Positions 30,688 through 39,986 of a DNA stretch of 64,000 bases are shown piece after piece; positions within the stretch are counted from its first letter, which is position 1, and the number at the start of each line of letters is the position of its first letter. The DNA comes from Candidatus Peribacteraceae bacterium. Lineage in GTDB: Bacteria; Patescibacteriota; Gracilibacteria; Peribacterales; Peribacteraceae. The translations under genes and the position numbers were made by a program. The stretch lies in the NCBI GenBank assembly GCA_028703445.1, contig JAQVMW010000007.1, positions 18,935 to 82,934 of the forward strand, written 5' to 3'. Under the pieces are notes generated by a model. It made no database searches. It saw only the letters and a program-made list of their open reading frames with translations, and was not told the origin of the DNA.

Positions 30688-31152
30688 ATGAAGCCCATTA
30701 TTTCACTCTCCGCTGCAGCTTTGCTGCTTGCAGCCGCGGTGCCAGCGTTCGCAATGGTCAATTCCTCCGCCGTGACCAATCGTATGTCCCGCCGTCTTCT
30801 CGAGGATAAGACTCTGTCCGAGCAGCGTGTTCCGGTTGGGGCCGTAGAAACCACAGTTCTTCTGCGCGAGCGCAAGGAGATCGCGCCGAGCACCTCTGGT
30901 TTTTCCAGTCTGAGCCGTTCGCGCATCATGACGCGCATTCACACACTGCGTGGCGCACGCACGCCGGAGTCACGAGGCGATCGTCCGAGTCGCCGCAGCA
31001 TCATCAAGGATGCGGAGTCTATGCTCGTTCTGCCCCCCGCATTGGTGCAGACCGGCGATGCCGAGGCCACGGTCACGATCACACAGAAAGTCACCCGCCG
31101 TACGCTCATCAAAATGACCGAGGATGTCAATCGTGTGCAGGTCGGCCAGTAA
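30688..31152 (+). CDS. secreted hypothetical protein
   Basis: Signal-like MKPIISLSAAALLLAAAVPAFA. Confidence 0.6.
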   Translation: MKPIISLSAAALLLAAAVPAFAMVNSSAVTNRMSRRLLEDKTLSEQRVPVGAVETTVLLRERKEIAPSTSGFSSLSRSRIMTRIHTLRGARTPESRGDRPSRRSIIKDAESMLVLPPALVQTGDAEATVTITQKVTRRTLIKMTEDVNRVQVGQ

Positions 31153-34138: not shown

Positions 34139-35077
34139 ATGAATCTTTCCCAGACAGTCCGCGGGGTCACCTTCTTTAACCCCACTGTTCTCGCATCGGG
34201 CATCTGGGGCATCACCGCATCGAGCTGGCGCCGCGTCGCGGCAAACGGGGCGGGGGGGATCACCACGAAGTCCCTGTGGCTTGCGGAACACAAGGGGCAT
34301 CCCAATCCCACGATCATTTCGACGGAACACTGGACGCTCAATGCCGTCGGTGTGCCGGATGCGGGGATCGAAAAGGCGCGCGAGGAGATCGGTGATTTTA
34401 ACAAAAAGAAACTGGTCCCGCTCATTGCGAACATCATCGCGAACACCGTGGATAACTACGGAAAGACTGCGGTGGAAATTGTGAAGCTCAAGCCGGATTT
34501 CCTTGAAGTGAACATCAGCTGTCCCAATGTGGAAGATGAGTTCGGCAAGCCATTCGCCTGCTCGGTGCGCGATGCTTCCGCGGTCACGAAGGCGGTAAAG
34601 GCGGTCAGTGGCAAGATTCCGGTTTTCATCAAGCTCTCGCCGAACGTCGATGATATCGGCTCCATCGCTTCGGCCTGTGCAGAGGCCGGTGCCGACGGTT
34701 TCACCGTCATCAATACCGTCGGGCCGGGCATGGCGATCGATTTGCGCAGCAGGCGTCCGATCCTCGCCAACAAGGTCGGCGGCATGTCGGGACCGGCCAT
34801 CAAGCCCATCGCGGTTCGCTGCATCGCGGATGTCTACCGGTCCACAAACGGTAAGCTCCCCATCATCGGCACGGGCGGAGTGATGACGGGCGAGGATGCC
34901 ATCGAGTTCCTTCTTGCAGGAGCGTCGCTCATCGGCATCGGCACTGCGATTGCCTACCGGGGCGCCGAGGTCTTCCGCCTGGTCTGCGAAGAGATGACGG
35001 CCTGGTGCGAGACGGAAGGCGTGAAGAAGATTTCCGAGCTCACCGGCGGCATGCACAGGGAACGCGCGTCTCGCTAG
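34139..35077 (+). CDS. pyrD: dihydroorotate dehydrogenase (class 1B-like)
   Basis: LANIIANT, LEVNISCPNV, GGMSGPAIKPIAVRCIADVY, IIGTGGVMTGEDAIEFLLAGA. Confidence 0.9.
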   Translation: MNLSQTVRGVTFFNPTVLASGIWGITASSWRRVAANGAGGITTKSLWLAEHKGHPNPTIISTEHWTLNAVGVPDAGIEKAREEIGDFNKKKLVPLIANIIANTVDNYGKTAVEIVKLKPDFLEVNISCPNVEDEFGKPFACSVRDASAVTKAVKAVSGKIPVFIKLSPNVDDIGSIASACAEAGADGFTVINTVGPGMAIDLRSRRPILANKVGGMSGPAIKPIAVRCIADVYRSTNGKLPIIGTGGVMTGEDAIEFLLAGASLIGIGTAIAYRGAEVFRLVCEEMTAWCETEGVKKISELTGGMHRERASR

Positions 35078-35650: not shown

Positions 35651-36490
35651 ATGACAGAGATCTTGCGCCGCTGTAGCCGTTCCTCTGCGCAGAAAAATCT
35701 TCCGAGGACATATCCCGTTGCCGGTATCAGGAAGGAAACAACACATGTTCACACATTCACGTTCAACGTTTCGCTCGGTGCCAAGCCCGGCCAGTTCGTG
35801 ATGGTGTGGCTGCCGGGAGTGGATGAAGTGCCCATGAGTGTTGCCAACGATGACGGCAAGAAGCTGCAGATTACGTTCTTCGCGGTCGGTGATACGACGA
35901 AGAAGCTGGCAACGCTTAAAAAAGGGGATCTGGTGGGTTTGCGCGGCCCCTTCGGGACGCACTACGAGTGGAAACCCAAACAACATTTGGCGCTTGTGGC
36001 GGGTGGCTATGGCGCGGCGCCGATGTTCTTTGCCGCTTCCGAGGCTGCGAAGGACGGCTGTACGCTCACGGCGATCGTCGGTGCCAGAGCCAAGGAGCAC
36101 CTGCTCTATCTGGACGCCTTCAAGCGCTTACCCCGCACCACACTTTCCGTGGCGACGGACGACGGTTCGCAGGGTCACAAGGGCTACAACGTCGAGCTGC
36201 TCGCTGAACTCCTCAAATCGAAGAAGAAGCCTGACCAAGTCTTCGCCTGCGGGCCGGAGCGCATGCTCGTTAAAGTTTCCGATCTCTGCTTTCAGCACGC
36301 TGTTCCCTGCCAGCTCTCACTGGAACGGTACATGAAGTGCGGGTACGGGCTCTGCGGGAATTGCGTGGTGGATCCGTTGGGCATCCGCCTGTGCACCGAT
36401 GGCCCGGTTGTGAAGAATGATCTCGCCCGCAGTATTACGGAATTCGGTAAATACCACCGCGATCATCTGGGAAAGAAGCATTCTCTCTAG
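35651..36490 (+). CDS. PyrK-like dihydroorotate dehydrogenase electron-transfer subunit
   Basis: FNVSLGAKPGQFVMVWLPGVDEVPMSV, LVAGGYGAAPMFF, C-terminal MKCGYGLCGNCVVDPLGIRLCTDGPV. Confidence 0.85.
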   Translation: MTEILRRCSRSSAQKNLPRTYPVAGIRKETTHVHTFTFNVSLGAKPGQFVMVWLPGVDEVPMSVANDDGKKLQITFFAVGDTTKKLATLKKGDLVGLRGPFGTHYEWKPKQHLALVAGGYGAAPMFFAASEAAKDGCTLTAIVGARAKEHLLYLDAFKRLPRTTLSVATDDGSQGHKGYNVELLAELLKSKKKPDQVFACGPERMLVKVSDLCFQHAVPCQLSLERYMKCGYGLCGNCVVDPLGIRLCTDGPVVKNDLARSITEFGKYHRDHLGKKHSL

Positions 36491-36551
36491 AGTATTGGCA
36501 GAGAAAAGGGGAGAACGCGAAGCCCATGCTCTAGGGAAAAATCAAGCGAAA

Positions 36552-36578
36552 TTGGCACTCATGTATTGAGAGTGCCAG
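36552..36578. promoter_or_regulatory. CIRCE (HrcA) operator
   Basis: TTGGCACTC-N9-GAGTGCCAG; overlaps TTGAGA(36566)-N17-TATGAT(36589). Confidence 0.88.
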
Positions 36579-36624
36579 TCTGTTCTGTTATGATTGGTGT
36601 CTTCTACTTCTTCCCCCCTTTTCT

Positions 36625-36672
36625 ATGGTTGGCGGTGGTAAAGGAGGTTGCTGCGGTTGCGGGTCCTGCTAG
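36625..36672 (+). CDS. 15-aa Cys/Gly-rich peptide MVGGGKGGCCGCGSC
   Basis: ATG..TAG ORF directly downstream of the CIRCE promoter, followed by a GC hairpin/T-run. Confidence 0.6.
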   Translation: MVGGGKGGCCGCGSC

Positions 36673-36703
36673 GCACGACCTTCGCACATTCTCCCGGGAA
36701 GAG

Positions 36704-36733
36704 GCGGATCTCCTTTTGGGGCCGCCTTTTTCA
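36704..36733 (+). terminator. Rho-independent-like terminator after the micropeptide
   Basis: GGCGGatctccttttggggCCGCCttttt. Confidence 0.7.
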
Positions 36734-36734
36734 A

Positions 36735-36935
36735 ATTCATGAGAGGCAAACCTGCCCTTCGGCTCCGCTCAGGGCCTTCGGCGGTTTTTCTCTCACCCCT
36801 CGACTACGCTCGGGGTGACAACGTTGGAAATTCTTTCTTGTGACGATTGGGTGACCCAGAGCTTGTCGAAAGGGTCATGGGCTCTCTTTTCCCTCAAAGG
36901 TGCGGGGCACCCACCGCTTCGCCGCAATTATTTCG
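36735..36935 (+). ncRNA. repeated two-hairpin 3' element, copy 5 (degenerate, with palindromic insertions)
   Basis: H1-like TTCATGAGAGGCAAACC...GGTTTTTCTCTCA, CTCTCTTTTCCC, truncated H2 ending CACCGCTTCGCCGC. Confidence 0.5.
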
Positions 36936-37185
36936 ATTTTTGACAAAACTGAATAAGTTTTTCTTTCTCCGTCTTTGTCCACGTTTTCACCTGCGCTTCA
37001 CGTCTGCGGGCATCGCCCAGCGTGGCAAACTGTTCGTGGTAAACGAATCGTACGGGACGATGCGCACGCGTGTACTTGGCGCCCTTTCCCTCGTTGTGCA
37101 ATTGTTCGCGTTTCTTCAAATCAATGCACGAACCTGCATACAGCGATCCGTCACAGCAGCGGGCGAGATAGAAATAATGGGGCAT
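36928..37185 (-). CDS. GIY-YIG domain protein (UPF0213-like)
   Basis: YFYLARCCDGSLYAGSCIDLKKREQLHNEGKGAKYTRAHRPV. Confidence 0.88.
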   Translation of the reverse strand: MPHYFYLARCCDGSLYAGSCIDLKKREQLHNEGKGAKYTRAHRPVRFVYHEQFATLGDARRREAQVKTWTKTEKEKLIQFCQKSK

Positions 37186-39494: not shown

Positions 39495-39608
39495 AGAGAG
39501 AAAGAAAGAGCGAGGAAAGGGTATGGCAGAGCGCGGAGGAGCGCCAGAGGGTAGTGGCTGAAACATGCAGAAAATGCTATAATAGCGGTGAGAATACCAA
39601 CAGCCCCA

Positions 39609-39986
39609 ATGGTCCTCCGAACGCTTCGTACCTCCTTCATCCTGGCCGGCCTCACGATTCTCGTCTCCACGGCAGGGAATGTTCACACTATCATGCGCGC
39701 GAACCTGACGGAGCAGGGATCCACGCTCACCAATTTGAAGATCGAACAGATGTCCACTGCGGAAATTCGTCAGCACCTGAGTGCGCCGGAACGGGCAAAG
39801 CGCAGCGTCTCGGCCGAGATCGCCCTCGGGAGCATGCTGCTGCTGCTCGGGCTTGGATTGCATGCGTACATCAAGCGCAGACTTCCGGATGAGCGTGCCG
39901 TAAAGGTCCACGCCGCTCCGGCTGCATTTGGGCGTGACAAGCGAAAAATGGACCGGTGGTTTCTGTGGATGACGGTGCGGATGTAA
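39609..39986 (+). CDS. small membrane hypothetical protein
   Basis: Two hydrophobic segments; TATAAT about 30 nt upstream. Confidence 0.55.
   Translation: MVLRTLRTSFILAGLTILVSTAGNVHTIMRANLTEQGSTLTNLKIEQMSTAEIRQHLSAPERAKRSVSAEIALGSMLLLLGLGLHAYIKRRLPDERAVKVHAAPAAFGRDKRKMDRWFLWMTVRM

Follow-up and report, generated by a model that had tools for sequence, protein, structure and literature searches.

A glycine- and cysteine-rich micropeptide gene under putative HrcA/CIRCE control in Candidatus Peribacteraceae

Behind a CIRCE operator, the putative binding site of the repressor HrcA, a Candidatus Peribacteraceae bacterium carries a stand-alone gene of 15 codons whose product, MVGGGKGGCCGCGSC, contains 4 cysteines and 7 glycines. 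Homologues of this gene were located at 51 loci, spread over 50 of the 75 genomes that represent its family/order, a group of uncultured, ultra-small CPR bacteria (Patescibacteria). We consider it very likely that the gene is, in this genome, real, translated and controlled by HrcA. The whole proposal, according to which an HrcA-repressed stand-alone gene encodes a translated micropeptide acting as a stress-induced thiol ligand that buffers soft metals, earns somewhat better than even credence. Chaperones, proteases and HrcA itself make up the known HrcA/CIRCE targets, and the literature searched yielded no stand-alone micropeptide as a target. The gene family appears to be new; no account of the peptide was found in the open-licence literature searched. 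Conserved, regulated genes of 8–29 codons thus exist that are called by no annotation pipeline, and genes this short can be found by looking behind known operators. The HrcA heat-shock regulon would gain a non-chaperone, cysteine-rich target, and uncultured, genome-reduced bacteria a candidate for metal/thiol protection.

The locus and its regulatory signals

The window, meaning the whole stretch of 64 kb that was analysed, belongs to a genome of 1.37 Mb that is 98.75% complete. Within it, pyrG, pyrD and pyrK precede the micropeptide locus, the features of which are listed in Table 1. The overlap of the CIRCE with a promoter of the form TTGAGA-N17-TATGAT, put forward in the original prediction, was confirmed. 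It had further been held that the peptide, with its 15 residues, was the sole downstream open reading frame (ORF). The peptide is as described, but it is not alone, since an ORF of 50 aa starts at about position 36590 in another frame. The longer ORF was rejected as the product, as it is not conserved in the orthologues, and an internal AAAGGAGG, which resembles a Shine-Dalgarno sequence and falls within the Lys-Gly-Gly codons, was discarded likewise, being absent from the orthologues. On neither strand of the 64-kb window was a second ATG ORF of 9–31 aa with at least 15% Cys and at least 25% Gly found.

Table 1. Features of the micropeptide locus and related elements in the 64-kb window
Feature	Position	Strand	Support or remark
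CIRCE operator (putative HrcA-binding inverted repeat), TTGGCACTC-N9-GAGTGCCA	36552..36577	+	aligned in orthologues
-35 element TTGAGA, within CIRCE	36566..36571	+	same register in same-genus members
-10 element TATGAT, 17-nt spacer from -35	36589..36594	+	conserved T/A columns
Pyrimidine-rich leader (...CTTCTTCCCCCCTTTTCT), abutting the start codon, no Shine-Dalgarno	36601..36624	+	like dnaK, groES and hsp20 leaders
Micropeptide gene, 15 codons + TAG	36625..36672	+	homologues at 51 loci; codon changes mainly synonymous in close pairs
Intrinsic terminator, GAGGCGG...CCGCCT stem + T5	36700..36731	+	GC hairpin and T-run
pyrK, dihydroorotate dehydrogenase B electron-transfer subunit; outside the micropeptide transcription unit	35651..36490	+	upstream neighbour in 28/34 loci
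pyrD, dihydroorotate dehydrogenase	34139..35077	+	syntenic
Second CIRCE of the window, upstream of hsp20 (ATG 44466, minus strand)	44498..44523	-	

The exact form of CIRCE found at the micropeptide gene occurs there and nowhere else in the 1.37-Mb genome, while near matches stand before dnaK, groES, clpC, hsp20 and hrcA, the products of which have Pfam support (HrcA, Cpn10, Clp_N/AAA, Hsp70 and HSP20). The hrcA gene itself lies at G000:C17 (PF01628, E=7e-23). The putative link to HrcA and heat shock, likewise foreseen, is thus supported both by an operator that overlaps the promoter and by the presence of the repressor gene. The likeness to the HrcA/CIRCE regulon extends from the operator, its overlap with a sigma-70-type promoter and the HrcA gene to the pyrimidine-rich leader. 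The leaders of dnaK, groES and hsp20 are rich in C and T (TTTCCCC, CTTCCCC) right up to the ATG and lack a Shine-Dalgarno sequence; the leader of the micropeptide gene is of the same kind, which supports the called start codon. Such leaders are not universal, since a simple rule detects one at 7 of the 39 long ORFs of the window. On the CIRCE-controlled genes of this lineage, TTYCCCC before the ATG is possibly a translation-start signal. A kinship of the peptide with the Gly/Met-rich C-terminal tail of GroEL was considered and rejected; the GroEL of this genome ends in an ordinary GGGGGMDF.

Distribution of the gene

A BLASTN search with positions 36530–36730 retrieved full-length homologues from six relatives, with 72–81% DNA identity from the CIRCE through the ORF and all matches stopping near the ORF end. 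The peptides encoded there are MSGGEKGGCCGCC, MAINGGEGGGCGCGSC, MIGGGKGGCGGCCGYTGGGGCCGC, MSGGEKGGCCGLMGGGGGCGCGSC (twice) and MFGGGKGGGGCGGCCGCC. Sequence-only models (R1, then R2), which run from the CIRCE to a point shortly beyond the start codon and touch the ORF with their last columns alone, were then searched against 75 genomes of the family/order, 361 of the class and a phylum sample of 389, the E-values being rough. In the class search, 39 matches had E<=1e-7, and a Gly/Cys micropeptide follows 38 of them, all in the window's own family (f1). Relatives with a CIRCE and then such a peptide, which the original prediction had proposed to look for, do exist. Because this set was selected by the operator/leader model and not by peptide composition, it forms the unbiased core of the evidence. 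The total of 51 loci combines the model matches with loci inspected downstream of pyrK.

No member was detected in 25 of the 75 family genomes. Some of the 25 are incomplete; others, certain nearly complete ones among them, may have lost the gene or carry it elsewhere. CIRCE-linked forms were not found outside the window's family, either in the class (361 genomes) or in the phylum sample (389 genomes), and the weak class and phylum matches that were checked proved to be groES, clpC or other CIRCE genes. A pattern of CIRCE plus TTYCCC searched over GTDB genomes occurs at no fewer than 80 loci; among the matches listed, one has the peptide, on a Peribacteraceae contig.

The single exception among the 39 matches is a 139-aa protein in genome G063. 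The CIRCE-like site before it (G063:C3:22053-22130, L109, minus strand) precedes a signal-peptide-like N-terminus (MKSFVRMAIAAGISMSLITPGFAY...), and the start of the protein is similar to that of window ORF 30688–31152. It is a possible further non-chaperone target of HrcA.

Composition and possible function of the peptide

The 51 members are 8–29 residues long, with 2–7 cysteines each, and average 44% Gly and 24% Cys; for the members from the looser ORF scan, which were chosen partly by composition, such figures are biased upward. CGC is the commonest motif (32 members), followed by CC (26) and CxxC (24), and the last cysteine lies at most three residues from the C-terminus in 50 of the 51. 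Some members contain internal repeats, for example MISGPGCGSCGFGPGCGSCSFGPGCGSCS, while the smallest, MTGGCGCK and MTGPGCGC, have 8 residues and 2 cysteines. Both the number of cysteines and the length vary freely, even among species of one genus. Genomes G092 and G088 (L316, L317) contain divergent His/Cys-rich members, MSGEHCNCGFCGGGHC and MSGEHCNCGFSGGGHC, without a CIRCE and without the replacement palindrome described below.

The free variation in cysteine number and length would point to a buffer whose capacity matters rather than to a folded domain with one partner, and a constant terminal dithiol on a glycine chain is more readily understood in a buffer or chelator than in a binder of one particular protein. 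The mini metal-binding or redox peptide originally suggested agrees with the composition and is plausible, and a function as a metal/thiol ligand is, judged from sequence, reasonably probable. According to the mechanism that we propose, the stand-alone HrcA-repressed gene would yield a flexible, Gly-rich chain of 8–29 residues with a terminal cysteine pair or cluster (CGC, CC, CxxC). Misfolded protein occupying the chaperonin would lead to loss of HrcA activity, whereupon the micropeptide promoter would open along with those of dnaK, groES, clpC and hsp20, and the cytosol would fill with a small, unfolded dithiol or multithiol ligand. Most likely, this ligand would then buffer or sequester soft metal ions (of the Zn, Cu(I), Cd/As type) that damaged proteins release or are endangered by, and would thus resemble a mini-metallothionein or a phytochelatin encoded by a gene.

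Metallothioneins, both of the bacterial SmtA type and yeast CUP1, offer a lead in this respect, being likewise small and Cys-rich, with CxC, CC and CxxC spacing. Yeast CUP1 is, moreover, stress-induced under the control of heat-shock factor. The cysteine content given above and the C-x(0–2)-C spacing present in 49 of the 51 members are of the metallothionein kind. However, the micropeptides are far smaller than SmtA or CUP1, have no fold and form no sequence family. A metallothionein cluster needs about 7 or more cysteines, a number reached by a single member of the 51, and the 8-residue, 2-Cys members are too small to enclose a metal cluster in the metallothionein fashion. Phytochelatins, (gamma-Glu-Cys)n-Gly, are produced enzymatically from glutathione and contain gamma-peptide bonds. 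They are likewise tiny, unfolded thiol peptides with a variable number of thiols in CxC-like spacing, whereas the micropeptide is gene-encoded. Hsp33, a heat-shock protein with a zinc/redox switch, uses CxC and CxxC thiols; the micropeptide has similar thiol motifs but lacks a chaperone domain and is not related to it in sequence. We would class the family with the stress-induced small Cys-rich peptides, with a real chance that its nature is categorically new.

Alternatively, and this is the strongest rival, the C-terminal CGC, CC or CxxC dithiol may make the peptide a diffusible, ribosomally synthesized disulfide reductant or isomerase, or a thiol buffer of low molecular weight, with the task of repairing heat-damaged proteins under disulfide stress. 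All members have at least two cysteines, the CGC motif is frequent, and MTGPGCGC and MTGGCGCK amount to little beyond a CGC tripeptide. According to Woycechowsky & Raines (2003), as cited in PMC3173608, CGC on its own mimics disulfide isomerase, its reduction potential being −167 mV. That mimic is a synthetic tripeptide, of which the micropeptide would be the gene-encoded counterpart. On the other hand, about half of the members have CC or more than two cysteines, beyond what a dithiol needs, and no reductase partner gene is linked to the locus, so that this explanation seems unlikely to us, if worth keeping in mind. A preference for metal buffering over a purely redox role is itself tentative, somewhat short of an even chance on the peptide sequences. 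A RiPP-like product might also be imagined, the ORF encoding the precursor of a peptide that is modified after translation or exported and is of a size comparable to microcin C7. The ORFs stand alone, can be as short as 8 codons, and are Gly-rich at the N-terminus and Cys-rich at the C-terminus; among the loci inspected, however, no conserved maturation or export gene adjoins them, which makes this improbable.

Selection on the coding sequence

Three close pairs of loci differ in 11 codons, with 10 synonymous changes and one nonsynonymous, while random single changes in these ORFs would be synonymous in 24% of cases (P about 5e-6). Third codon positions hold 10 of the 12 nucleotide changes in these pairs (P about 5e-4). 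Dinucleotide shuffling of 34 homologous loci gave a Gly/Cys ORF in 2 of 10 200 tries, as compared with 34 of the 34 real loci; the shuffled loci had been selected for such ORFs, and the unbiased figure is the 38 of 39 obtained in the model search. Since nearly all codon changes in the close pairs are synonymous, the substitution pattern indicates that it is the amino acids of the peptide, and not an RNA, that are under (purifying) selection. Conservation across 50 genomes, together with the synonymous changes in the close pairs, lends strong support to the predicted CIRCE-controlled gene for a Cys-rich micropeptide.

It could still be argued that what is conserved is a small RNA under CIRCE control, in which the ORF is incidental, given a short transcript that closes with a strong hairpin at 31 of 34 loci. 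Yet the changes fall on third positions while the amino acids are kept, the sequences of leader and terminator diverge freely, the locus has no match in Rfam, and the composition of the peptide persists even at loci whose operator, leader and stem have diverged in sequence. We regard an RNA product as very improbable.

Replacement of the operator

A CIRCE matching the consensus (TTAGCACTC-N9-GAGTGCTAA), or deviating from it by 1–2 mismatches, is found at the promoter in about 39 of the 51 loci, and the canonical CIRCE is absent from 12. In eight genomes from three genera (g5, g20 and g27) that lack it, TTGACAATTRGTTYAGTWCTAAACTA stands before the micropeptide instead (loci L305–L307, L309–L311, L327 and L328). 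This element spans the region from −35 to −10, and its centre, between the two, is the perfect palindrome GTTTAGTACTAAAC. Four further genomes (G070, G025, G088 and G092) have neither a CIRCE nor a palindrome of the GTTTAGTACTAAAC type. A CIRCE kept where the peptide is not conserved would, by the original prediction's own standard, have counted against it; what is seen is the reverse, as the peptide persists without a CIRCE in several genera. On the sequence evidence, the peptide stays in place when its regulator is exchanged, and regulator swapping on one micro-gene becomes directly open to study.

Half-sites of GTTTAGTACTAAAC agree at 7–8 of 9 positions with the DtxR/IdeR box TTAGGTTAG, as listed in PMC524172. 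This is a lead, although the centre of the palindrome has 2 nt and that of the DtxR/IdeR boxes 1 nt (PMC524172). When up to two mismatches were allowed in the three genomes searched, GTTTAGTACTAAAC occurred essentially at the micropeptide locus only, so its regulon gives no clue. It is tempting to speculate that the family is the genetically fixed counterpart of glutathione and phytochelatins across the lineage, a ribosomally made dithiol serving the cell as its low-molecular-weight metal and redox buffer, which HrcA would switch on along with the chaperones and which a regulator binding to GTTTAGTACTAAAC would control in other genera. We hold this bolder idea to be doubtful; were it true, no smaller stand-alone stress genes would be known, the shortest of these having 8 codons.

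Genomic neighbourhood

The gene pyrK lies directly upstream, on the same strand, in 28 of the first 34 loci, a position that looks like inherited synteny. One might suppose from it that the peptide serves a specific partner protein, for example by handling a cofactor for, or protecting, the Fe-S subunit PyrK, which has a Cys-ligated Fe-S domain. The micropeptide gene, however, is equipped with a regulated promoter and a terminator of its own; it lies more than 1 kb further on from pyrK in G069 and G071, is on a different contig in G022 and G031, and in G063 is convergent with pyrK. In genus g27 (G030, G079 and G080), where the search for PyrK gave no match, the micropeptide gene directly follows a different pyrD. 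A dedicated PyrK partner is therefore highly unlikely, and since the peptide is kept both where the CIRCE has been lost and where another PyrD type has taken the place of PyrK, the peptide itself appears as the conserved entity.

A terminator hairpin with a T-run is present in 31 of the 34 loci checked, with differing stem sequences. Downstream, the neighbours are unrelated or convergent, without a conserved gene running in the direction of the micropeptide gene. The gene, with its own terminator and a downstream side that is not co-directionally conserved, is thus monocistronic. The idea of a ribosome-stalling cysteine sensor, raised in the original prediction, is not supported: a leader peptide or attenuator would agree with a short Cys-rich ORF with several adjoining Cys codons behind a regulated promoter, but the terminator comes next and the following gene of the window (36928–37185) is on the opposite strand, and we regard this explanation as very improbable.

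A convergent gene downstream of the micropeptide is common to 17 genomes. It belongs to a family of membrane-protein-like products of about 130–150 aa without a match in NCBIfam, to which window ORF 39588–39986 is related, and in many cases it is the first gene to follow, on the opposite strand. Finally, G098 has two micropeptide genes, one of them behind a second, partial pyrK, all within 12 kb (G098:C35:61134-73260), which suggests a local duplication.
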